NCBI GenBank assembly: GCA_029907545.1
Contig: JARYLR010000007.1
Location: forward strand, 1-57,267
Direction of reading: 5' to 3'
DNA from: Candidatus Bathyarchaeota archaeon
Lineage (GTDB): Archaea; Thermoproteota; Bathyarchaeia; Bathyarchaeales; Bathycorpusculaceae
DNA length: 57,267 nt
Part shown: piece by piece, positions 42,853 through 55,582 of the stretch
How the letters are laid out: every line of letters begins with the position of its first letter
Numbering within the stretch: the first letter of the stretch is position 1
The notes under the pieces: model-generated
Told to the model about the DNA's origin: nothing
The model's input: the letters and a program-made list of their open reading frames with translations, nothing else
Database searches by the model: none
Translations under genes and position numbers: made by a program

Positions 42853-43347
42853 TTATTTATTATGGGAAAAAGTGTCCACCTCTTGATCACTTACAAGCTC
42901 GTACACATTTCCGTACCCCGTGGACTTTCGAATGATTCCTTCTCGCTCAAGGCGTTTGACTCTTTCTCTCACTATTCTCCGCGAGGCTTTTCCACGCATT
43001 CGCTGAACCTGACGAGTAATAGCTGAAATGTTCAGTTTTTCATGCAAGGCGAGTGCTTGAACAATACATCTGGAAATGTCGTCTTGGAAAACTGACTGCT
43101 TACGCATGTGTGTTTCTGCTGCTTTGAGTTTAGCTGCAATCTTGAGAGGTTCCCCATACAACCCCATTCCAGCGCGGGTCATTCGAAGGTATGGGATTAG
43201 TCTCTCGTACTCTGGGTTATTAACTATCAACGATTCTAGTGTTTCAAGCCGTTTTATGATGAGGTCGAGCTTTCTGCTCAATTCATCGATAGTTGACTTG
43301 CTGTTGTTCTCCTTTTTTTCCGCCATTCTTCTCAGCTTTACTTTCAT
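42853..43347 (-). CDS. Coiled-coil winged-helix protein
   Basis: The 164-aa protein has an N-terminal coiled coil (about 17-45; [20 protein letters not shown]) and a C-terminal winged helix-like region (about 90-155) with [20 protein letters not shown] and [20 protein letters not shown]. This looks like a DNA-binding regulator that dimerises through its coiled coil. It heads the small-gene cluster and could control it. No effector domain is visible. Confidence 0.7.
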
Positions 43348-43499: not shown

Positions 43500-43703
43500 A
43501 TGCCAAAAGTCAAAGTAGATTGGACTAAATGCAACGGCGACGGCGTGTGCAAGGAAATCTGTCCGGTGAACGTTTTCGAAATAAAGAATCTCCCCGAACA
43601 CCCTGACAGCCCGAAATCTGTTCCAGAGCGGGAAAGCGACTGCATAGCATGCATGGCCTGTGTAACCTCTTGCCCCACACAGGCAATAACAGTCGAAGAA
43701 TAG
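43500..43703 (+). CDS. Ferredoxin with Asp in the first cluster motif
   Basis: The 67-residue ferredoxin has a second site of the standard type (C48, C51, C54, C58, CIACMACVTSCP). In the first site the usual middle Cys is Asp: C11-x2-D14-x2-C17-x3-C21-P. Pyrococcus ferredoxin has the same CxxDxxC, giving an Asp-ligated [4Fe-4S] that easily converts to [3Fe-4S]. It probably serves as the electron carrier for IorAB-type oxidoreductases. The ATG at 43500 is preferred over the GTG/TTG a few codons earlier. It converges on the DUF763 gene. Confidence 0.93.
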   Translation: MPKVKVDWTKCNGDGVCKEICPVNVFEIKNLPEHPDSPKSVPERESDCIACMACVTSCPTQAITVEE

Positions 43704-43706
43704 ACG

Positions 43707-44888: not shown

Positions 44889-45368
44889 TTAACATTTTTT
44901 CAGCAAACGTCCCTCTCGATCGATCTCGCCAAGATAAATCCTAGTGGTGGAAATGGGCGAATGATCCTGAGACGGAACCATATCTATCACAACTATATCC
45001 AGCGGGCGCAACCCACGGGATTCCCTTTCTTGATTAATCGCCTTCGCCATCGACTCTGTCTCGCTGCTTACGATTATGGCTTCGACGCAGCCTTCGGACA
45101 GAGTCACGCCGTACGCATCGTTAAGAGGAACAATTGTGGTTCTTTCTGACAGGGAATGGCTGTCTAGGAAAGCTTTCAGGTCCCGCAGCCGTTGCAGGTA
45201 TGGCGCTATTGAGTGAGGCTTATTAAGTTTCTTGGCAAACTCGTCAGTGCACAGGCCGATGAGAGCTTTTTCGCTTACGTCAAATGCCTTCAGAAGCAAG
45301 GCTCTATGGCCCTTGTGAAGCTCGTCGAAAGTGCCGCCCACGGCGACTGTTCTATATTTACGCGCCAT
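44889..45368 (-). CDS. coaD: Archaeal phosphopantetheine adenylyltransferase
   Basis: This enzyme adds AMP to 4'-phosphopantetheine, giving dephospho-CoA. The protein has 159 aa. The nucleotidyltransferase motif is GGTFDELHKGH (T13, D15, H18, H21), and the second motif is ISTTRIYLGEID. The archaeal PPAT family has its own C-terminal tail, here ending EIDREGRLLKK. The ATG at 45368 is chosen because it matches the family start; a TTG at 45380 overlapping the upstream stop (TTGA) would add four residues. It is translationally adjacent to pantoate kinase. Confidence 0.92.
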   Translation of the reverse strand: MARKYRTVAVGGTFDELHKGHRALLLKAFDVSEKALIGLCTDEFAKKLNKPHSIAPYLQRLRDLKAFLDSHSLSERTTIVPLNDAYGVTLSEGCVEAIIVSSETESMAKAINQERESRGLRPLDIVVIDMVPSQDHSPISTTRIYLGEIDREGRLLKKC

Positions 45369-45376
45369 TTTCCGCT

Positions 45377-46306
45377 TCAACTCAGTAGCCTAGCACCATG
45401 AACATCCAAGTTTGCTACGAGAATGTTTTCACTGGGCAAGACACGTTTAAAAGCTTGCGCTACTCTTTCGGCATTATCTGAAGTTGTCAATGCGTGAACA
45501 GCATCGCCAACCATGTTTTGTGCAGCCCCAATCGCGTCTGACTGCTCTGCAAGACTGACTAGTTTCTGTAGTTTCTCAGTCATGAAGCCTGCTTGCACCG
45601 CGAAACTGTAGCAACATTTCATGAAGTTCTCCAGCGAAGGTTCAGCAAGAATCTTTTCCAGCGTTTTTCTACCCCACTTGTTTACTGCAGCGCGCTTCTC
45701 GCTTGATGAAAGCACATCCACGGTGGGTATAGGCCCGTATATTCCCACTACTATAACGTAGTCTTCAGTTATTGGAATTCGATCTATAACCGCGATTCCT
45801 GGAGCTCCTGGCTCTACGGTTAGTATGCATCCGCCTAGCATTAGGGGGCCTACTGTGCCTAGGCCTGTTTTGCATTTGACCTCTGCAGCGTGTGCAATTC
45901 TGCCTAGCTGGTTGTAGGTTAGGTGCAGGTCTAGTGCTTTGGAAAGTGCTAGGGCTGTGGTTAGGGCTCCTGCGGCGCTTGAGCCAAAGCCTGCTCCGAT
46001 TGGAACTTCAACTTTGTGTTTGATGAGAATATGGTATTTGCGGCTGGCTTTGTCGAGAAGTGTTCTGGCTACTGTTTTGGTGGTTTTAGCTTCTGGCGAA
46101 ATCTTGTTGTTGATGAAGACTTGGATGCTGTTGCTTTTTGCTTCTGAAACATGAATGTGGGTGGTGACGCCTTTTTGAATGCCGAATCCACCACCTCGAG
46201 CGCCAACTTTCTCCAAGTCCGAGATTGGGTTGCCATTTTCTGCGGTGTCGCAGATTTCAAAGAAACTTGAAATTCCGGCGGGGCTGAATGCTTCGGCTTC
46301 TTTCAC
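45377..46306 (-). CDS. pok: Pantoate kinase (GHMP family)
   Basis: This enzyme phosphorylates pantoate in the archaeal CoA route. The 309-aa GHMP kinase shows AFSPAGISSFFEIC at the start, the ATP loop VPIGAGFGSSAAGALTTALA, KTGLGTVGPLMLGGCILT and, near the end, IGAAQNMVGDAVHALT. The order with coaD and an ECF transporter makes PoK the best assignment, and the N-terminal SPAGISSFFE is typical of PoK. Phosphopantothenate synthetase is not in the window. Confidence 0.9.
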   Translation of the reverse strand: MKEAEAFSPAGISSFFEICDTAENGNPISDLEKVGARGGGFGIQKGVTTHIHVSEAKSNSIQVFINNKISPEAKTTKTVARTLLDKASRKYHILIKHKVEVPIGAGFGSSAAGALTTALALSKALDLHLTYNQLGRIAHAAEVKCKTGLGTVGPLMLGGCILTVEPGAPGIAVIDRIPITEDYVIVVGIYGPIPTVDVLSSSEKRAAVNKWGRKTLEKILAEPSLENFMKCCYSFAVQAGFMTEKLQKLVSLAEQSDAIGAAQNMVGDAVHALTTSDNAERVAQAFKRVLPSENILVANLDVHGARLLS

Positions 46307-46312
46307 CGTTAT

Positions 46313-47167
46313 CTACTCTTTTGCGTAAGGCTTTAAGGATGGAAAAGCCTTGTAGCATGCTTCAAGGATTAGTGGTCCAAGCAGAAGGATGAACGGGATT
46401 TCTGTTGCAAAGGTCCAAACGTATATTACGGGCATGAATAGGGCGGGTACAGGAGCCTTGAAGTAGGCTGTGGGTGAAAAGAAAACTTGGCTGTAGGCCC
46501 AAACAGCAACCGCGATAATCACGCTTCCCACGCTTAAGCCAAGCACGGAGCCAGCTCCGTAGTTTCTCCATTCAGGCCAGAACTTAGCAACTACGGTTAT
46601 GACAAGTAGGCTTACGACGGTGGTTAGAACAAACAGGAGAACAATTTCGAATGATGACAGCGTGAAACTGAAGTAGGCAGCTGACTCAGTTGGCAACAGT
46701 GCAGTGGGCAGCAGCAAGCCGGTTATGATGGCTGCAGTTCCGAAGCCTGTGCTTAGCGCTATCTTTTTCCAGTCTAGGCTTGTTCTGGAGACATAGCCAA
46801 TAATGAAGAAGCCGGCGAAGTTGGCGGTGACTCCGGCGGACAAGCTAAGAAGAGGATCTCCATGGAAAAGCATATCCCTTATGAATATTCCTATTGCTGC
46901 TCCTATTCCTCCAGTCCATGGTCCAAATAATACGGCGAATACTGCGGGGATCACTGCGGCAGGCCAGAAGGCTACTCCGCCTACTGTGACTCCGAAGTCT
47001 GTGAGTCGTCCGACTACTGCGTATAGTGCTGCGCAGATGCCTATCATGGCGATTTGGATGGATTTTGTTGGCAACTGTTCTCCCTTCTCTGGTGGTTGGG
47101 CTTTTAGACATGGTTTTTGTAGATAAGAATTTTGTATGAATTGTTTAAACACGTCTAAACTTTCCAT
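46313..47167 (-). CDS. ECF transporter S component, possible pantothenate-related vitamer uptake
   Basis: The 284-aa membrane protein has an ECF-S-like core of about six helices (IQIAMIGICAALYAVVGRL and FWPAAVIPAVFAVLFGPWTG, with GGIGAAIGIFIRDML). The long C-terminal half has two further helices (LSLSAGVTANFAGFFIIG, FATEIPFILLLGPLILEA). The substrate cannot be read from the sequence. Its place 6 nt ahead of pantoate kinase in the CoA operon suggests pantothenate or pantoate/pantetheine, which is an inference. The EcfA/T components are not here. The gene is divergent from the pilin gene. Confidence 0.85.
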   Translation of the reverse strand: MESLDVFKQFIQNSYLQKPCLKAQPPEKGEQLPTKSIQIAMIGICAALYAVVGRLTDFGVTVGGVAFWPAAVIPAVFAVLFGPWTGGIGAAIGIFIRDMLFHGDPLLSLSAGVTANFAGFFIIGYVSRTSLDWKKIALSTGFGTAAIITGLLLPTALLPTESAAYFSFTLSSFEIVLLFVLTTVVSLLVITVVAKFWPEWRNYGAGSVLGLSVGSVIIAVAVWAYSQVFFSPTAYFKAPVPALFMPVIYVWTFATEIPFILLLGPLILEACYKAFPSLKPYAKE

Positions 47168-47212: not shown

Positions 47213-47235
47213 TGTGTAGTTTTGTTCTACGCACA
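47213..47235. promoter_or_regulatory. Interrupted palindrome before the pilin gene (operator A)
   Basis: TGTGTAG (47213-47219), 7 nt, then CTACGCACA (47227-47235). The same pair, with spacing kept, occurs at 48051-48073. It ends 8 bp before the TATA box of the pilin gene (47243-47251). See the finding on shared control. Confidence 0.65.
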
Positions 47236-47242
47236 AACCATC

Positions 47243-47251
47243 TTATTTAAA
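47243..47251 (+). promoter_or_regulatory. TATA box of the pilin gene
   Basis: TTATTTAAA lies about 34-42 nt before the ATG at 47285, directly behind the palindrome. This places initiation at about 47272-47276. Confidence 0.5.
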
Positions 47252-47284
47252 CTTGGCTGATTCACGACCACGGAGAAAAAGGAA

Positions 47285-47845
47285 ATGAACGTCCTAAAGA
47301 ACAAGAAAGCTTTGAGCGCTGTAGTTACTACGCTGATCATACTCGTCGTTTCAGTGCTGCTCGCAACCGTCGTGACTTTCTACGCCATCAACGTGACAAC
47401 CACAAGAGTTCAAGAAGAAAGCATTCAGGTCTACAAGCTGCACACATGGCACGATGGCTCAACCTATGCCGAAACAGCGTTCCTGATAATCAACACTGGC
47501 GGTCGTGACCTTGTCATCGACAAGATCGCAGTGAGAGGTCAGGAATGTGACTGGTCAACAGTCTTCTACAACAAGACGACATCTACAATAAATGACGACC
47601 TGCCATATGTTACACCGACAAACGCCACATATCTAGCTAGTTCAGTTGCTGTTGGAAGCACTACCTACACCCTGACTCAGGGAAGCACAGATGACCTGAT
47701 CTTGCAATCAGGTGACAGCATGATCGTCTACATACTTAACCCTGACCACATCTCTGTCAACGACATCGGTGTCACAGTAGGCGTGACGATATTCACTGCC
47801 AACGCTCAGTACTACAAGGAATCTAACGTGCAAGCTTCTTCGTAA
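47285..47845 (+). CDS. Type IV pilin-like protein (class III signal peptide)
   Basis: The 186-aa protein has the archaeal class III signal-peptide layout: a basic start, KKA|LSAVVTTLII cut site and a long hydrophobic helix to about residue 30. The rest is an extracellular beta-rich domain with several N-x-S/T sites (YAINVTTT, VFYNKTTST, TPTNATYL). The gene stands alone with its own promoter and operator A and a strong T-rich terminator after it. It is the most likely major pilin, with the operon behind it as the machinery. Confidence 0.85.
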   Translation: MNVLKNKKALSAVVTTLIILVVSVLLATVVTFYAINVTTTRVQEESIQVYKLHTWHDGSTYAETAFLIINTGGRDLVIDKIAVRGQECDWSTVFYNKTTSTINDDLPYVTPTNATYLASSVAVGSTTYTLTQGSTDDLILQSGDSMIVYILNPDHISVNDIGVTVGVTIFTANAQYYKESNVQASS

Positions 47846-47860
47846 GCAGCGCAATAGCTC

Positions 47861-47894
47861 TCCTCTTTCTTTTTTCCTCTGTTTTATGTTTTTT
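47861..47894 (+). terminator. T-rich terminator after the pilin gene
   Basis: TCCTCTTTCTTTTTTCC, TTTTATG and TTTTTTAA follow 15 nt after the stop codon. Oligo-T tracts without a clear hairpin fit archaeal termination, so the pilin is likely expressed apart from the operon at 48143. Confidence 0.5.
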
Positions 47895-47935
47895 AACATG
47901 GCAAAGAATGGAGAAAACTGATAGGTGAAGCGTTC

Positions 47936-47953
47936 TAAACCCCCTATATATAG
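47936..47953 (+). repeat. C5-TATATA motif, copy 3
   Basis: TAAACCCCCTATATATAG matches 8845-8862 at 17 of 18 positions and its last 14 nt match 20466-20479 exactly. It lies about 190 bp before the pilus operon, in the 297-bp gap 47846-48142, and could be an extra promoter. Apart from the terminator and operator B nothing else stands out there. Confidence 0.5.
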
Positions 47954-48050
47954 ACAGTTAACTTTAGTCTGCATTGTCGCTACTGCTAGGTAGCTAGGCT
48001 TTCTAGGAAGCAGAGGTTTGGTTTACGCAAATATGTATTCTCGCTACTGA

Positions 48051-48073
48051 TGTGTAGTACTGTTCTACGCACA
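48051..48073. promoter_or_regulatory. Interrupted palindrome before the pilus operon (operator B)
   Basis: TGTGTAG (48051-48057), 7 nt, CTACGCACA (48065-48073). Both arms and the spacer length are identical to operator A, and both are followed within 8 nt by TCTTAT. It lies about 70 bp before the operon's first start codon. Confidence 0.65.
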
Positions 48074-48142
48074 CCCTCTTATCTTCTCATTGAAGTGAAA
48101 AATCGCTAGTATACCGAATAGAGAGGAGACCAGCCGAAGACA

Positions 48143-48982
48143 TTGTGCCCAAAGCAGCCAACAAGAAAAGCCTCAAAGCCGGTTCGCTCAAACAGAGCTT
48201 TAGCCATACCAGTCACCTATCTGATGCTGTTCGTGGCTCTCATCACTATAATATCGGCAACTTACAGCTTCGCAATAATCAAGATCAACGCCAAGGCAAG
48301 CACGCTTAAAGCCTCACTTGCAAAGCAAAGTATGCAGCAGCTCGACGATGCGGTGCGTAATGTAGCCTGGAGCATAGGCGCATCCAAAACAGTCTATTTT
48401 GACGATTACGGTGGCAGTTTTCAGGCTTCTATGTTCGCAGATAGCCTGCAGATCATCATCGCCTTCGAGACCATGCCTTCCGAAGTGGTGCTTAACGGAT
48501 CGATTGGAAAGGTGGCTTACGTGCTGCAAGCCTCCGAGTACAGCGATGTTGGGCTCTTCGTGAAAGGAGACATCAGAGCAATAGTGAACCAAAGCTTCCT
48601 TATGACGACACAGCTTTACATAGACGAAAACGGGGGCAATCAACAAGTCATGCTGTGCTACCGCCCCTACGCCGTGTCAACGCCTATCGGATCAAAAAAC
48701 GGCAAACCCTTGAACCTTGTACGCGTCTACCTCATAAACTTGAGCTTACCGCAAAGTCTCTTGCTTGAAGGAAAATTTAATCTAAAAACAACATCAACAA
48801 ACATTGAGGTTACTACAAAACAGTACGAACTTAACCAAACAGTCACCTCGGTCGCGTTGACAGGCAAAATGGGCTTTCGCTCAGATATGGTTTGGCTACC
48901 GATCTCAAACAACTTGGACGGAGCATTCGTAGAGCTGGAGATCCTTGTTTGCAATGTTGGCATAGAGAAAGTGGGGGCTTAG
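48143..48982 (+). CDS. Pilin-like protein 1 of the pilus operon
   Basis: The 279-aa protein has a short basic leader, RSNRA|LAIPVTYLMLFVALI, that looks like a class III signal and then a hydrophobic helix to about residue 45. The outer domain is beta-rich. The start is TTG at 48143 with GAGGAGACC some 12-20 nt before it, and the nearby alternative codons give no better site. It is the first gene of the pilus operon and is 2 nt ahead of the next one. Confidence 0.75.
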   Translation: MCPKQPTRKASKPVRSNRALAIPVTYLMLFVALITIISATYSFAIIKINAKASTLKASLAKQSMQQLDDAVRNVAWSIGASKTVYFDDYGGSFQASMFADSLQIIIAFETMPSEVVLNGSIGKVAYVLQASEYSDVGLFVKGDIRAIVNQSFLMTTQLYIDENGGNQQVMLCYRPYAVSTPIGSKNGKPLNLVRVYLINLSLPQSLLLEGKFNLKTTSTNIEVTTKQYELNQTVTSVALTGKMGFRSDMVWLPISNNLDGAFVELEILVCNVGIEKVGA

Positions 48983-48984
48983 CT

Positions 48985-49440
48985 GTGCCATCGATACTGC
49001 CAGGGCATCTTTACACTTTCGCTGCGCTCCTAGCCGTAAGCAGCCTTCTTGTATTCTCATTCATGGTCTATGCGGGAACAGCTCGTGCGTCGTCAGAAAT
49101 AAAGCTGTTAAGCAAACTTTTAGACTATGTTGCGGCTGACGCAAGCGAACTTCTCAACATAGTTCTCACGGTGAACGCTACTATCGAACGCTACCTTCAG
49201 ATGCCCTCAGCGATAGGCAACCAGCAATACTGGCTTAGACTTTGCAATGACTCTTCCAGCGCATGGGTGAAAGGTGGGCTGGGAACCACGCCAATAGAAG
49301 GTTCAGAGCTTAAAGCCTATCTTTCCAAGGAAGTTATCGCGTCTGGCAGCTATATGTCTGGATATGGATCAGCTAAGCTGACATGTTTCCTCGACGACGG
49401 CGTTCCAAGACTTCAGCTTTCAAACGCAAATGGAGATTGA
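48985..49440 (+). CDS. Pilin-like protein 2 of the pilus operon
   Basis: The 151-aa protein has an N-terminal membrane helix (about 8-28; YTFAALLAVSSLLVFSFMVY) with few charges before it and an outer part with N-x-S/T sites. GTG 48985 comes 2 nt after the previous stop codon with GGGGGC just before it, and its stop overlaps the ATPase ATG (TGATG). A longer frame reaching back to 48892 would overlap the previous gene by 91 bp and is not favoured. It could be a minor pilin or an assembly factor. Confidence 0.7.
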   Translation: MPSILPGHLYTFAALLAVSSLLVFSFMVYAGTARASSEIKLLSKLLDYVAADASELLNIVLTVNATIERYLQMPSAIGNQQYWLRLCNDSSSAWVKGGLGTTPIEGSELKAYLSKEVIASGSYMSGYGSAKLTCFLDDGVPRLQLSNANGD

Positions 49441-51041
49441 TGGATGTGAAGCTGGGAAATAAGCCTAAAGCAAAGGCGGAAACAAGCCTTGAAGAAGCAA
49501 TCAAGAACGAGGAAGAAGCAGTTGATTCCCTCAATGTTAGAAGATCGAGTATCCCTGAGGGATATGATGAGATCGAGTACTATCCACTTGTGCCTCCTTT
49601 CGCCTACGCGGCAATTCTCCAAAACAGAGAAACACTGGAACATCTTTACGCGCTGGATGAACTTCCGTTAAGCAGAGAGGAAAGAATAGGCTACACCAGT
49701 TTAAGAAACATCTTGGAATACGAACTGCAGGCACCTGAAGGTGAAGAAACGCTTGCCGAATCCTTCAGAAGACAATTACCCGCCGTCATCGCAGACCATG
49801 AGAAAATCTTTGCAGGAATCTCCCAGATTGGCATGCGCAAAATTCTCTATAATCTGGAAAGGGATATTGTGGGCTACGGAAAAATTGACCCGCTTCTGCA
49901 TGATGACAACGTAGAGGACATAAGCTGCGGCGGAGTGAACAAGCCCATCTTCCTTTGGCACAGAAAATACGAGAACATTAAAACCAACGTGGCTTTTCGC
50001 GATGAGCAAGAACTAGACGACTTCGTGATGCGCGTTGTCCACAAGGCTGGAAAACACGTAAGCATAGCCTTCCCAATAGTTGACGTGACTCTCCCTGAAA
50101 AACACAGGCTGGCAGTCTCCTTTGGGAAAGAAACAACGCCGCTGGGCACATCATTCACTGTGAGAAAGTTCCGTAGAGACCCTTTCACCATTGTTGACTT
50201 GATTGAGAACGAGACAATAGACGAATCCATAGCCGCATACCTGTGGCTGCTCATGGAGAACAAGATGTCAGTAATGATCATAGGCGCAACAGGTGCAGGC
50301 AAAACCACAGCGCTGAACGCCGTAGCCTGCCTTGTAAGACCCAACTACAAAATAATCTCAGTAGAAGAGGTCGCAGAGATCAACCTGCCGCATGAAAACT
50401 GGACCTCAACCATTGCCCGCTCAGGCTTCGGCGTCGAAGGCGAAGGCGAAATCTCGCTTTACGACCTGATCAAATCAGCCGTACGGCACCGTCCAGACTT
50501 AATACTCGTAGGAGAAATACGCGGAGAAGAGGCATACGTCCTATTTCAAGCGCTGGCAACAGGCCACGGCGGCTTATGCACCTTGCATGCTGAGGACGTT
50601 GACACCGCCGTGAAAAGGCTTACACAGCCGCCTATGAACATCCCAGCATCAATAATTCCGCTGATGAACTGCGTCATCAACGTTAAACATGTGAGAACAC
50701 CTGTCTTCCTGGAATCCGGAAAGCGGCTTTCAAGTAGAAAATTCATCAATGTCTCAGAAATAAGAGACGCCGGCAACTTCCAACAGGTCTTCAACTGGAA
50801 TCCTTCAACAGACACTTTTCAAGACAACATTGCAGACAGCTATCTGCTCAAGAGAATGGCTGCAAGCCTAGATATTCCCATCGAAAAAATTGTGGACGAA
50901 CTCGAGTACCGCAAGCGCGTTTTGCTTCACATGGTCGAGCATAGAATAAGGGACTACAAGAGCGTGAACAATGTACTGAGTAAGTACTACAACAACCCGC
51001 AACTGTTTCAAAAAGAGTTTCTTGAAAAACCAAAGTGGTGA
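49440..51041 (+). CDS. Type II/IV secretion system ATPase (TadA/ArlI-like)
   Basis: The 533-aa motor ATPase powers pilus assembly. Walker A is GATGAGKTT at 282-290 and Walker B is LILVGEIRGEE at about 354-364. Between them, VEEVAEINLPHENW and GEISLYDLIKSAVRHRPD carry the Asp-box. The His-box reads GHGGLCTLHAED. The N-terminal domain (1-~210) has AYAAILQNRETLEH and YGKIDPLLHDDNVEDIS. ATG 49440 overlaps the previous stop by one base. The neighbouring TadC-like membrane protein is its platform. Confidence 0.95.
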   Translation: MDVKLGNKPKAKAETSLEEAIKNEEEAVDSLNVRRSSIPEGYDEIEYYPLVPPFAYAAILQNRETLEHLYALDELPLSREERIGYTSLRNILEYELQAPEGEETLAESFRRQLPAVIADHEKIFAGISQIGMRKILYNLERDIVGYGKIDPLLHDDNVEDISCGGVNKPIFLWHRKYENIKTNVAFRDEQELDDFVMRVVHKAGKHVSIAFPIVDVTLPEKHRLAVSFGKETTPLGTSFTVRKFRRDPFTIVDLIENETIDESIAAYLWLLMENKMSVMIIGATGAGKTTALNAVACLVRPNYKIISVEEVAEINLPHENWTSTIARSGFGVEGEGEISLYDLIKSAVRHRPDLILVGEIRGEEAYVLFQALATGHGGLCTLHAEDVDTAVKRLTQPPMNIPASIIPLMNCVINVKHVRTPVFLESGKRLSSRKFINVSEIRDAGNFQQVFNWNPSTDTFQDNIADSYLLKRMAASLDIPIEKIVDELEYRKRVLLHMVEHRIRDYKSVNNVLSKYYNNPQLFQKEFLEKPKW

Positions 51042-51047
51042 AAGACC

Positions 51048-52556
51048 GTGGAGATGCATATTAAGCCAAAATTCTTCAAGCAAGTCCTAGGTTACCTATC
51101 AGGCGCAAGCTCAAGCGAAATCGACCGTGAACTGCCCTTCGCCGCGTTGCTGTTCACGTTGCTTGCGGCAAGCGGCGTGACAATCTACGAGAGCTGGAAA
51201 AAACTGTGCAAAATAGGTCTCTTGCCTTCCTTTCAAAAAGAAGCCCGCGAAATCGTCCGGCAGGTCGAGGTTCTGGGTTATGACCCGCTTACCGTGATGT
51301 ACAAGCGTGCTGGAAAAGTGAAATCGAAAAACTACCGTGAATTCCTGTTGGGCTACGTGTCCTCGGTGAGAAGTGGAGGAAATACCGTAAACTACCTTAA
51401 GAGCAAACTGCGCTCGATCTTCGATGTGCAAAGCGCCGCCGCCGTCCGCTCAATTGAAAGGCTAGGAACCCTGGTTGAGGCTTACGCGGTAATGCTCATA
51501 GTCACCCTTTGCTCCTACATACTCTTCATTGTCTTTTCAACAACCTCCATCTTCGAACCCATGAAAACCTCAGGGACGCCTGGCATGTCTCCAGTCGTGA
51601 CAAGTGTTCTAGTTTTCTTTGTGACACCCATGATTTCCATTGTATTCATGGCGATCGCAAATGCGGAGCGAAAGAGCAACTTGACAAGCGTCAAGAAGCC
51701 CTTCCAGCTGGCACTGCCCTCAGCAGTAGCCGTTGGGCTGTTTCTGGTGCTGCTTGCGTTTCCAACCCCCATTCAGTTTCTAGCCGGACCAGAACTCTTT
51801 CCTCTTGTGATTACGGTTTGCTTAACAATAATCTCTTTTCCACCAATGTTTGCTTACGCAAAAATCGCGAGGATAAACTCTGATGCGGAAACAGCTATGC
51901 CCAGCTTTCTCAGAGACGTGACCGAAGCCAGAAAAACCGGTTTATCCCCGGAAAAAAGCATAATCCACGCTGCAAAGCGCACTGGTTACGGGCGGTTTAC
52001 AGGTCTGCTTCACCTTATTCGAAGCCAAATGGAATGGGGCGTCTCGCTTAGAAAGATCTTCGAAAACTTGGGACAAAAAATCCGCTCATGGCCTGTTCTC
52101 GTGCATTTTCTGATACTTTCGGAAACAATAAAGATCGGAGGCGGCGCAACCACCGCGCTGGACATACTTACGGAGTACAGTGAGAAACAGAGAGATGTTG
52201 ACGCCAACAAGAAGTCGCTTCTTCGCCCCTACGTCATTCTCGCCTTTGTCTGGAGCATCCTCATCGCGCTTACAACAACCATGGTTGCCATGACCGTCTT
52301 CGCCTTGACTCAGATATCCATGCCCGGCACTGCTCCTATGCCGATCAGGCTTATGCAGGATCAGATCAACATGTTTTCAGTGGGCATAATCTTTCAGTGT
52401 TGGCTTTCAGGGTTCTTTGTCGGCAAGGTGAACGAGGGAACATTCGCTGCAGGCTTCAAGTACTCCGTCATGCTCGTAATCACGGCGTATCTCTCGTTGG
52501 TGCTGTCACGCGGACTGATAGGAGACCTATACGGTGTCACAGTATTTCCGCAATAG
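51048..52556 (+). CDS. Pilus platform membrane protein (TadC/ArlJ-like, T2SSF)
   Basis: This 502-aa polytopic protein is the inner-membrane partner of the ATPase. Two T2SSF-like helical domains (about 25-140 and 270-390; the second has FLRDVTEARKTGLSPEKSI and SEKQRDVDANKKSLLRPYV) alternate with groups of membrane helices at about 145-190, 200-270 and 395-495. In TadC/ArlJ platforms the cytoplasmic helices contact the ATPase. GTG 51048 or ATG 51054 may be the start. The gene begins 6 nt after the ATPase stop. Confidence 0.92.
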   Translation: MEMHIKPKFFKQVLGYLSGASSSEIDRELPFAALLFTLLAASGVTIYESWKKLCKIGLLPSFQKEAREIVRQVEVLGYDPLTVMYKRAGKVKSKNYREFLLGYVSSVRSGGNTVNYLKSKLRSIFDVQSAAAVRSIERLGTLVEAYAVMLIVTLCSYILFIVFSTTSIFEPMKTSGTPGMSPVVTSVLVFFVTPMISIVFMAIANAERKSNLTSVKKPFQLALPSAVAVGLFLVLLAFPTPIQFLAGPELFPLVITVCLTIISFPPMFAYAKIARINSDAETAMPSFLRDVTEARKTGLSPEKSIIHAAKRTGYGRFTGLLHLIRSQMEWGVSLRKIFENLGQKIRSWPVLVHFLILSETIKIGGGATTALDILTEYSEKQRDVDANKKSLLRPYVILAFVWSILIALTTTMVAMTVFALTQISMPGTAPMPIRLMQDQINMFSVGIIFQCWLSGFFVGKVNEGTFAAGFKYSVMLVITAYLSLVLSRGLIGDLYGVTVFPQ

Positions 52557-52582
52557 AAGCAAAAACAGGAGGCGCAAGGAAC

Positions 52583-53647
52583 ATGCCAGCCACGTCGATT
52601 GACACGTTCTTCGCCTGTTCTTTAATGGTGTTGCTTACGGTAGTTGCCATGGCAAGCACTACGAAGGTAATCTATTCTTACATTGGAAACCGTCAAGAGA
52701 AAAGCGAAGTTGAGAGGTTTTACGCTTTGTCTAAACGTCTCTTACTGGACTGCGGAACCCCCGCAGACTGGGGTAAATACGGAGAAGAGATTCCGGAAAG
52801 GTTCGGTTTAGCGGAAAGCGGTGCAGAAACCACGTACGTGTTGGATATTGACAAGGTTTCTCGGTTAAGCGATAGGAACCACTTCAGAGTCACGTATGCA
52901 CAAGCATACTCAGCTTTAGGGATGCCGGACTTATCTTTCAAAATGGAGATAAAACCAGTTTTTGACGTCACTGTAAACCTAACAGCGAAATATGAAGGAA
53001 TAAATGAAACAACATACACTTTCAGAATCCTAACTGAACGTGACGGTGCACCCGTTTCTGCTGAATTGAAATGCTACGTAGTCTCAGAGAAGCACGTACA
53101 ACAGCGCGAAGCCAATGCTTCAAGCGGTCAAATCCACGTCAACATGAGCATCCCAAACAGCGACGCTGGGCCAGCACTGTTTGCAGTTCTTACTAGATCT
53201 CCCTATGATTTGCGCATAGCGTCTTTCAACACGTACTCTTTTCAACACGGGTCTGCAACGCCTAAACCCGGTGGAACCTACGCGAAGCTAAGCCCGCTAA
53301 ACCACAGCCTCACAGTATCGCTGAATCATCCCTTAACAAACGTTTCCCAAGTGTACGCCTTAACTTTCAACTGTATTTCAACACTTGCGCGGACAGAAGT
53401 GTCTAACCAGTCAGCAGTCTACAGAATCCCCAGCTTCACAGAGCCAAGCCCCATAATGTTGGTCGCGGCTGGCTATAACTTTACAGATTTCTTCACCGAG
53501 TGGATGGCGTACCCGCAGGTTCCTGTTCAGTTTGGCGTCAGCCCGGCGGGGCGCTCAAACACAGTTACTTGTCACTACATTGTTGAGATTAACTCAGTTA
53601 TCTACAAGTGCACGATATGGATCGGAGGCTTGACCGATGAGAAGTGA
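52583..53647 (+). CDS. Membrane-anchored pilus operon protein, 354 aa
   Basis: The protein has one N-terminal membrane helix (about 6-28; TFFACSLMVLLTVVAMAST) and a large outer region rich in N-x-S/T sites and beta strands. It lacks a clear class III cut site, so it may be retained or have a minor-pilin role. ATG 52583 is preceded by CAGGAGGCG. A longer frame from 52397 lies in the platform gene and is not real. The 3' end overlaps the next gene by 11 bp. The sequence is otherwise unrecognised. Confidence 0.7.
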   Translation: MPATSIDTFFACSLMVLLTVVAMASTTKVIYSYIGNRQEKSEVERFYALSKRLLLDCGTPADWGKYGEEIPERFGLAESGAETTYVLDIDKVSRLSDRNHFRVTYAQAYSALGMPDLSFKMEIKPVFDVTVNLTAKYEGINETTYTFRILTERDGAPVSAELKCYVVSEKHVQQREANASSGQIHVNMSIPNSDAGPALFAVLTRSPYDLRIASFNTYSFQHGSATPKPGGTYAKLSPLNHSLTVSLNHPLTNVSQVYALTFNCISTLARTEVSNQSAVYRIPSFTEPSPIMLVAAGYNFTDFFTEWMAYPQVPVQFGVSPAGRSNTVTCHYIVEINSVIYKCTIWIGGLTDEK

Positions 53648-54062
53648 AAACGTAGGGCAGATCCGCATAATCGAAGCCCTCTTAGCCATGTCTGTTATTT
53701 TCTCGTCCTTAGCCATCTCAACGAATCTGGCAACCGTGCCAAATGATGCTGGTCAACGTGATCTTGGCTCCATAGGGTTTAGGGTTCTTATGCAACTGGA
53801 CTCAGATGGAGCATTATGTGCACATATAGAAAACGGAAACTGGGTGGCTATCCGCAGACTTCTGGCTATAATGTTGCCTAGTGAGACATTGTTTAACATG
53901 ACTGTATACAATGAGGACATGCAGCAAATCAACGCGGAGCTAATCTGCAATGGAGATCTCTCTGACCACGAAACAGTTAGCATAGAGTATGTTGCCGCAA
54001 GCCTAGGCCCAGTCTTCCGTGTTTACCTGATCCAGTTAATGCTGGCGACGATCCATGAGTAG
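53637..54062 (+). CDS. Pseudopilin-like protein, 141 aa
   Basis: The N-terminus ENVG|QIRIIEALLAMSVIFSSLAIS resembles a prepilin: Gly followed by a hydrophobic helix with a Glu near its start, as at +5 in type IV pilins (+6 here). The rest, about 110 residues, includes a basic/hydrophobic helix (WVAIRRLLAIMLP) and a few beta strands. Overlaps of 11 bp with the previous gene and 8 bp with the next show tight coupling. It may be a minor pilin that primes assembly. Confidence 0.7.
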   Translation: MRSENVGQIRIIEALLAMSVIFSSLAISTNLATVPNDAGQRDLGSIGFRVLMQLDSDGALCAHIENGNWVAIRRLLAIMLPSETLFNMTVYNEDMQQINAELICNGDLSDHETVSIEYVAASLGPVFRVYLIQLMLATIHE

Positions 54063-54816
54063 AAAAGACAGAACGCTTGCTTCCAACCGCTCAGGGCAGA
54101 TGCTCATAGTTGCCGCACTCGCCATAGCCATTCTAATCTCCACAACCGTGATGTACGCCTATGAACTAGCCAAGGAACAGTACAGCCAAACAGATAGAGA
54201 GATCAGCGACTTCATCCAGCAAATAAAACTGGCAACACGAAATATGGTGGCAAGTTCGCTTGCAAACACTTCCAACAACGCGGGAAGCACAGCTATTACT
54301 GCAAATTCTGCAAAGATCTCACAACTTGTCAGAAGCCTGCATCTTTACGAGGTATCCAACCTAAGCCTCTCGCCACGCAATGATTCTACATATAGAGAAG
54401 GCATAAAACTGTCATGGACTTCGAACGGAGCTGGAACCTCAAGCGCCTACGTAGACGCAGTTTTACATATAAAGAGCTTCTCAACAGACGTAACTGCAAG
54501 GTACAGCGTCAACGTGACCACAACGATGATGATTGATGGATACTACGTGGTTGCAGGCAGCGAGAAACACGTCACCCTTACATGCAGAGCATATAATGAA
54601 AATAAGTCTTCTTCTGTAGGAAACGTCACTCTCTACTACGGTGACAACGGCAACTGGATTCAAGTAACCGATTATTCCACGGTCTCTTATGGAAACGGAA
54701 CCTATGTCTTTTCCTTTTTTGTCAGCATTCCGACTGACAACGTCGAAGTTACTGCGCATGTGCTTGATTTACGCGGCATTTACGTGCAAGCCAACGTAAC
54801 ATGCTGCGCCCAATAA
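54055..54816 (+). CDS. TadE/G-like pilus operon protein, 253 aa
   Basis: The N-terminus NRSGQMLIVAALAIAILIS resembles the (R)GQALVEFAL type of TadE/TadG pseudopilins. A membrane helix (about 17-37) is followed by a coiled-coil segment (about 38-65; EQYSQTDREISDFIQQIK) and an Asn/Ser/Thr-rich beta domain with many glycosylation sequons. It is the last gene of the operon (overlap of 8 bp with the previous one). The C-terminal half could be an Ig-like fold. Confidence 0.7.
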   Translation: MSRKDRTLASNRSGQMLIVAALAIAILISTTVMYAYELAKEQYSQTDREISDFIQQIKLATRNMVASSLANTSNNAGSTAITANSAKISQLVRSLHLYEVSNLSLSPRNDSTYREGIKLSWTSNGAGTSSAYVDAVLHIKSFSTDVTARYSVNVTTTMMIDGYYVVAGSEKHVTLTCRAYNENKSSSVGNVTLYYGDNGNWIQVTDYSTVSYGNGTYVFSFFVSIPTDNVEVTAHVLDLRGIYVQANVTCCAQ

Positions 54817-54892: not shown

Positions 54893-55582
54893 ATGGCTGA
54901 GAAAACCTTGTGCCGCCACTTGTTCACTCTTCTGAAACTTGCAGAGCTTGGCGCCCATCGGAGAACTGCAAAAATTTCAACCGAATACTTGGCGGCGAAA
55001 ATGCAAACTTCTCAGCAGACAGCCTCCCGCTACCTCATCGAGTTGGAACGTAAAAGATGGATCACCCGAAACATAACGCCTGAAGGATGCTTGATCAAAA
55101 TTACTGAGGAAGGCGCCAAAGAGCTTAACAGATTTTACTCCACACTCAAGCTTGTAGTCGAAGCTTCATACCCCCTCTCGATTACTCTGGAAGGTGTCGT
55201 CTTCACAGGACTCGGCGAAGGCGCCTACTACACCTCAAATGAGCACTACCGAAAACAGTTCATAGAAAAACTTGGGTTCGACCCTTATCCCGGCACGTTG
55301 AATCTTAAGCTCACTACGGATTACGATGTGAAGACGCGATCAGAGCTTGAAGCCTACCCTGCAGTTGAAATAGAGGGCTTCCAGATGCAGGAACGCAGTT
55401 TCGGTCCTGTGAGGTGCTATCCAGCGATAATCCAGAACACAGTGAAGGGCGCTATTGTCACCGCGTTAAGAAGCCACTATGACAACTCCGTCGTGGAGGT
55501 TATTTCACCTCTGCCGCTGAGAAAGCATCTGAAACTCAAAGATGGGCACAAAGTGAAGGTAGAGGTTCTGACTCTTCCATAA
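54893..55582 (+). CDS. ribK: CTP-dependent riboflavin kinase with HTH domain
   Basis: This enzyme makes FMN from riboflavin using CTP, an archaeal feature. The 229-aa protein has an N-terminal winged helix (about 5-80; TSQQTASRYLIELERKRWIT) and a C-terminal kinase (95-229) with GVVFTGLGEGAYYTSNEHY, FDPYPGTLNLKL and the CTP-site GFQMQERSFGPVRCYPA. The HTH may sense flavin and repress its own gene. The FAD synthetase (56196) provides the next step. Confidence 0.93.
   Translation: MAEKTLCRHLFTLLKLAELGAHRRTAKISTEYLAAKMQTSQQTASRYLIELERKRWITRNITPEGCLIKITEEGAKELNRFYSTLKLVVEASYPLSITLEGVVFTGLGEGAYYTSNEHYRKQFIEKLGFDPYPGTLNLKLTTDYDVKTRSELEAYPAVEIEGFQMQERSFGPVRCYPAIIQNTVKGAIVTALRSHYDNSVVEVISPLPLRKHLKLKDGHKVKVEVLTLP

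Follow-up and report, generated by a model that had tools for sequence, protein, structure and literature searches.

The two interrupted palindromes that preceded the type IV pilin gene and the pilus-assembly operon of a Bathyarchaeia genome are likely operators of a single pilus regulon, read by c8, a TrmB-family protein acting as a dimer. Both palindromes were located in the window (the whole 57,267-nucleotide stretch of DNA that was analysed) as exact copies of TGTGTAG-N7-CTACGCACA (Table 1). As the preliminary description had reported, each was followed by TCTTAT, after a gap of 5 nt for copy 1 (47241-47246) and of 3 nt for copy 2 (48077-48082). The distance from copy 1 to the ATG of the pilin gene (47285) was 49 bp, and that from copy 2 to 48143, where the first pilus-operon gene has its annotated TTG start, was 69 bp. 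The neighbouring genes encoded the characteristic components of an archaeal type IV pilus, namely a pilin signal region, an ATPase and a platform protein. The UpsA/Pilin_N-like match of the pilin was under the curated cut-offs, the ATPase was ArlI/VirB11-like with E=1e-104 and the platform protein was UpsF-like with E=6e-27.

Table 1. Operators, promoter elements and genes of the pilus region in the window, and the candidate regulator gene on contig C11.
Feature	Position	Strand	Remarks
Divergent operon: ECF transporter S component, GHMP-type kinase, phosphopantetheine adenylyltransferase-like protein	44889-47167		
Operator copy 1	47213..47235	+	TGTGTAG-TTTTGTT-CTACGCACA; 5' of pilin promoter; kept in orthologous pilin promoters
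Inferred weak BRE and TATA-like element, pilin promoter	47237..47251	+	ACCATC; TCTTATTTAAA from 47241; block ATCWTAT(TT)AAA conserved at equal spacing
Type IV pilin, UpsA-like, Pilin_N-like	47285..47845	+	186 aa; weak family matches, strong orthology
Operator copy 2	48051..48073	+	TGTGTAG-TACTGTT-CTACGCACA; 5' of pilus-assembly operon
Inferred weak TATA-like element, pilus-operon promoter	48077..48087	+	TCTTATCTTCT; TTATCTT kept in orthologous promoters
c3, first pilus-operon gene	48143..48982	+	279 aa; N-terminal membrane segment
c4, second pilus-operon gene	48985..49440	+	Start picked from homologues
Secretion/pilus ATPase, ArlI/TadA/VirB11-like	49383..51041	+	
Pilus membrane platform protein, UpsF/ArlJ-like	51048..52556	+	
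c6, c7, c2, three more pilus-operon genes	52397..54816	+	Gene order conserved
c8, candidate regulator	C11:3666-4538	minus	290 aa; one clear copy in this genome; adjoins c20-c19 and is divergent from it

By arithmetic, about 3e-5 exact 16-base matches would be expected in a sequence of the window's size. When up to 3 mismatches were allowed, the sole extra match in the window was copy 1 read on the opposite strand (shuffled sequences expected 0.28). Across the whole genome (1.46 Mb in 55 contigs, 97% complete) the exact pattern was present in two copies only. It had previously been noted that there was no third copy; this held for the window, while the genome contained a one-mismatch site at C44:2262-2284, whose place in front of that gene was conserved in other genomes (see c21 below). 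With two mismatches the pattern gave 29 matches in this genome against 41 for a reversed control, showing no enrichment, and weak sites were therefore accepted only if conserved in relatives. Sites at C6:19712 (within a coding gene) and at C53:43659 (within a small ferredoxin-like reading frame) were dropped.

The structure of the operator was derived from 78 aligned sites of three gene classes, which had been picked by score, so that the conservation of the arms was partly built in. The symmetric core was TGYGTAG-N7-CTACRCA, with positions 1-7 pairing with 15-21. Dyad columns 4-5 were complementary to 17-18 in 78/78 sites and column 6 to 16 in 97%; the third pair was variable, mainly T opposite A or G. 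An additional CA was present on the promoter-side arm only and, together with the dyad pairing, this defined the core as TGYGTAG-N7-CTACRCA followed by CA. Thus, the arms TGTGTAG and CTACGCACA of the preliminary description were correct in sequence and proved unequal in length. The spacer varied while the G-T-A/T-A-C bases were retained, and the half-sites were near-invariant without compensatory variation.

A TATA-like block stood 3' of the operator at a nearly fixed spacing, with the form ATCWTAT(TT)AAA at the pilins and TTATCTT at the pilus operon, and in Bathyarchaeia orthologues the motif usually ended 3-5 nt before the TCTTAT/TATA-like element. In the pilin promoter of the window the operator ended at 47235, the putative BRE at 47237-47242 (ACCATC) was poor and the TATA element started near 47243. 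As judged from the sequence, the operators were placed 5' of the predicted BRE/TATA, a position that would fit a TrmB activator site, and a regulator bound there would sit just 5' of the basal factors.

The motif was kept 5' of pilin and pilus-operon orthologues in many genera and families and in several orders of Bathyarchaeia. In 80 relatives the pattern was mostly paired, 0.65-1.3 kb apart, at the positions of the pilin and pilus-operon orthologues, and exact TGTGTARN7YTACRCACA was found in 48/257 genomes of the class. We also scored promoters with a matrix, with the cut-off set at the highest score among 3000 shuffled stretches of 350 bp. Sites were present at 38/76 pilin, 30/36 c3 and all 18 c21 promoters, and the same scoring detected none before genes inside operons (ATPase 0/34, platform 0/33, c19 0/26, c18 0/18). 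The divergent ECF gene c14 scored at 12/14 promoters because its intergenic region was common with the pilin, the same site being read backwards.

A matrix built from these earlier loci was then applied to 20 further loci, chosen mainly for having c8 without the exact motif (G125, G184 and G192 also had exact motifs). A testable pilin or c3 promoter was available at 12 of the 20, and 10 of these 12 had a site with p<=0.0013; without G237, whose site scored lowest (p=0.0013), 9 loci with a site were left. The positive loci reached other orders: in family f26 the pilin was preceded by a perfect dyad, TATGTAG-N7-CTACATA, and in family f27 two c3 promoters had sites. Sites were weak or absent in genus g11 (G146, G158), and the pilin of G230 (f27) was borderline (p=0.01). 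No site was present at the c3 promoters of G018, G033, G039 and G045 or at the Bathyarchaeum pilins of family f6; at c3 promoters without a site the gene is perhaps co-transcribed with the pilin. Overall, the data supported the palindromes as a predicted shared operator of the pilin and pilus-operon units. The preliminary description would have counted its reading as refuted if the motif were not conserved before orthologous pilin and pilus operons or occurred at random throughout the genome. Neither was the case: it was conserved there in several orders, its sites were tied to specific promoters, and chance scatter was rejected by the shuffles, the whole-genome count, the class-wide survey and the promoter-specific scoring.

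Copy 1 had also been described as lying between the pilin and a divergent operon, which is likely to serve CoA supply. The divergent operon adjoined the pilin only in the window's own family; in other families the TrmB regulator gene was upstream of the pilin. The operator is unlikely to belong to the divergent operon, since this operon was a neighbour at only 9 of the 21 loci in the comparison and the site was retained with the pilin. Further upstream in the window, a short ferredoxin-like frame with two CxxC-rich clusters (43501-43704, under the ORF listing cut-off) was located between the 42853 gene and 43707.

The candidate regulator c8 was found by clustering genes around 21 pilus loci. 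Its TrmB winged-helix domain (PF01978) was recognised in the orthologue from G051 with E=8.6e-17 and 61.2 bits against a cut-off of 25.6, and the c8 of this genome was 62% identical to that orthologue in the alignment. For the effector domain PF11495 the best score of 19.9 bits was below the cut-off of 22.2 and spanned only positions 4-126 of 233, so that c8 was without the C-terminal half of the TrmB effector/sugar-binding domain. The loss of this subdomain speaks against a TrmB-type sugar ligand. The best PDB relatives of c8 were TrmBL2 and TrmB, and its structural model (pLDDT 80, pTM 0.46) matched the same two folds in Foldseek (E=2e-13 and E=1e-9, respectively). According to NCBIfam, c8 was not a named TrmB, TrmBL1 or TrmBL2 equivalogue (25-30 bits against cut-offs of 500-650). 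Tyr81 was invariant in c8 and aligned with the TYDVL of TrmBL2, and the Asp of the DNA-contact Tyr-Asp pair in the recognition helix was replaced by Arg82, a change that would fit a different half-site in c8.

The c8 gene immediately preceded the pilin in families f2, f4 and f7, in G078 of f6 and in G017 and G021 of f1. In f9, f26 and f27 it immediately preceded pilus genes, and it was nearby in f5, f6 and part of f1. Among the 257 genomes of the class, c8 was present in 43 of the 48 with the exact motif, and the other five were 64-80% complete. In good-quality genomes it was found in 29/29 motif-positive and 23/91 motif-negative cases, counts that ignore shared ancestry. For this reason, and since c8 also tracks pilus genes, the co-occurrence is to be read as a link to the pilus system, not as proof of binding. 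In the six genomes of genus g20 (71-85% complete) c8 was not detected. Three of these six had the exact motif, which in two of the three shared a contig with the pilus operon, and in two of the six genomes contigs ended beside c20-c19, the usual c8 neighbours in that family. A site was present at 1 of 33 c8 promoters, giving little reason to propose autoregulation. The earlier suggestion of one operator and one regulator for the pilin and the assembly machine gained support from the conservation of the motif at both units and from the co-distribution of c8, which quite probably binds these operators.

The regulon had been described as two units; we found it to be larger, taking in at least a SecB-like gene, probably the c20-c19 operon, and a MoxR/VWA pair that was added in some families. 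The first of these genes, c21 (C44:1692-2174 in this genome; L099:1692-2174), encoded about 150 residues without a Pfam match, and its operator here was TGTGTGATGTGGCGCTACACACA, 87 bp upstream of the gene. The top Foldseek matches of its model (pLDDT only 60) were the SecB-like chaperone Rv1957 and SecB, with probability 1.0, so that c21 may be a SecB-like protein. By its promoter sites, c21 was the third conserved target predicted for the regulon. In families f4, f5, f6 and f9, c21 was back to back with c23, a MoxR/CbbQ-type AAA+ ATPase gene typically followed by c18 (a VWA protein with weak Pfam matches), and the operator lay between them. In the window's family, c21 was downstream of genes for an AglB/STT3 oligosaccharyltransferase and a glycosyl transferase 4.

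A weaker form of the motif preceded the c20-c19 operon, which encodes two protein families without confident Pfam matches. The site of this genome (C11:4929-4951) was alone at chance level and was accepted only for its recurrence in relatives; on this sequence evidence the operon probably belongs to the regulon. We also observed a pilus-linked module of c23, c18, c19 and c20 (L129:1992-6046; L169:5022-6115) that travelled with the TrmB gene and had the common operator in several families. At the pilus loci of family f7, a LonB-like protease gene, c28, was located between the TrmB regulator and c20 (L130:4019-6235). Many of the pilins without the canonical site were second pilins, often with the variant TGCGTTA-N7-NACATACA followed by AA and a TCTTA-like sequence. 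The second pilin of this genome (74% identical) had the variant TTGCTTAGTTTCTGTGACATACA followed by AACCGTCTTATTAAA at C11:140091-140113 (L110:3592-3614). This variant may be a weaker site for c8 or a site for a paralogue.

In the mechanism that we propose, a c8 dimer would place one winged helix on each half-site of TGYGTAG-N7-CTACRCA, and TrmB dimers are known to contact palindromes via paired recognition helices (PMC4158304). Bound just 5' of a weak BRE/TATA, c8 would recruit TFB/TBP and jointly turn on the genes of the pilin and of the assembly machine, and would also act at the SecB-like gene and, more weakly, at the c20-c19 operon. We consider it fairly probable that c8 activates instead of represses, as the poor TATA/BRE elements suit an activator. 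Moreover, promoter-upstream sites of other TrmB proteins go with activation: TrmBL1 bound 5' of the BRE/TATA activated 2/3 in vitro templates and repressed when its site was downstream (PMC4706686). The opposite sign, in which c8 bound next to the BRE would block TFB/TBP until released by an inducer, appears possible and rather unlikely. Several TrmB proteins do repress when sited at the BRE/TATA, and that of P. furiosus represses malE from such a position (PMC4158304). However, the operator of the pilin promoter stopped 1 nt before the predicted 6-nt BRE and did not overlap the TATA element. In the cultivated relative Bathyarchaeum tardum, whose genome carries c8 and a pilus locus, pili were not seen under the electron microscope (PMC10477458), as repression would allow; this fits conditional expression in general and favours neither sign.

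It is improbable that the operator, though real, is read by another protein, either the winged-helix protein at 42853 that had been put forward in the preliminary description or an RbkR-like riboflavin kinase at 54893. Both had winged-helix-like domains (42853 weakly so) and, in the window's family, were encoded close to the pilus genes. The 42853 orthologue was absent from 9/35 motif-bearing relatives, including good-quality genomes and G008, G013, G033 and G039, and present in 20/46 motif-less ones; outside the window's family its best match was on another contig than the pilus genes or far from them. On this distribution the 42853 candidate was rejected, and c8 fitted much better. The RbkR-like gene was at only 11 of 21 pilus loci, mainly in the window's family, and the exact motif did not occur elsewhere in the window or the genome. 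An RNA or chromatin feature, such as a leader hairpin, a terminator or a recombination site, could also form an inverted repeat, but we regard this as very improbable: the operator was 5' of the TATA-like element and so would lie outside the transcript, and the near-invariant half-sites without compensatory changes were tied to specific promoters while the spacer changed.

The c8 system had partial counterparts among known archaeal regulators. TrmBL1/Tgr with its Thermococcales Glycolytic Motif (TATCAC-N5-GTGATA) is also a TrmB-family protein with a palindromic operator, expected to activate from sites upstream of the BRE/TATA (PMC4706686). In contrast, the consensus TGYGTAG-N7-CTACRCA did not match this motif, having other half-sites and a 7-nt spacer, the predicted targets here were pili rather than sugar metabolism, and c8 was without the C-terminal sugar-binding part. 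A spacer of 7 nt has precedent in the family, since TrmB of Halobacterium salinarum (VNG1451C) recognises TACT-N7-8-GAGTA, acting as an activator or a repressor depending on position (PMC4158304); the sequence of its site is different and its targets are metabolic. Pyrococcus TrmBL2, the best PDB match of c8 in sequence and fold, is of similar length and likewise lacks the sugar subdomain, but it is an abundant chromatin-type protein, whereas the sites predicted for c8 form a narrow set and are specific in sequence.

Among regulators of surface structures, Sulfolobus ArnR/ArnR1 activates a type IV pilin-like promoter (flaB) through inverted-repeat boxes, TCGAC-N5-GTCGA, and ArnR also binds aapF and upsX fragments without these boxes (PMC6396743); unlike c8, these proteins are membrane-bound, and both regulator and motif are unrelated to those described here. 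EarA of Euryarchaeota is a dedicated surface-appendage activator whose TACATA boxes are a few nt 5' of the BRE (PMC10665913), but these are single 6-bp boxes without a dyad, and they serve the archaellum instead of pili. In Haloferax volcanii, transposon insertions in or near trmB-like genes resulted in adhesion-defective strains (PMC5198076). Text searches of open-licence papers turned up neither a described regulator of Bathyarchaeia pili nor a TrmB protein with a direct action at pilus promoters, which is weak evidence of absence.

Bathyarchaeia rank with the most abundant uncultured archaea, and the TrmB family is known mainly for sugar control. With about even confidence, we suggest that c8 is a previously undescribed, class-wide master regulator of Bathyarchaeia pili, a TrmB-lineage activator without the sugar-binding subdomain that would control not only the pilins and the assembly machine but also a SecB-like chaperone and, in some families, the MoxR/VWA pair and two proteins of unknown function. 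In that case, the additional regulon members would amount to a pilus-secretion accessory module of a kind that is not on record for archaeal pili, and the TrmB family would extend to surface appendages. The common operator points to c19, c20, c21 and c18/c23 as partners of the pilus. Moreover, with its operator assigned, one specific candidate for the regulator and a compact predicted regulon, this system can be tested with purified protein and without culture.
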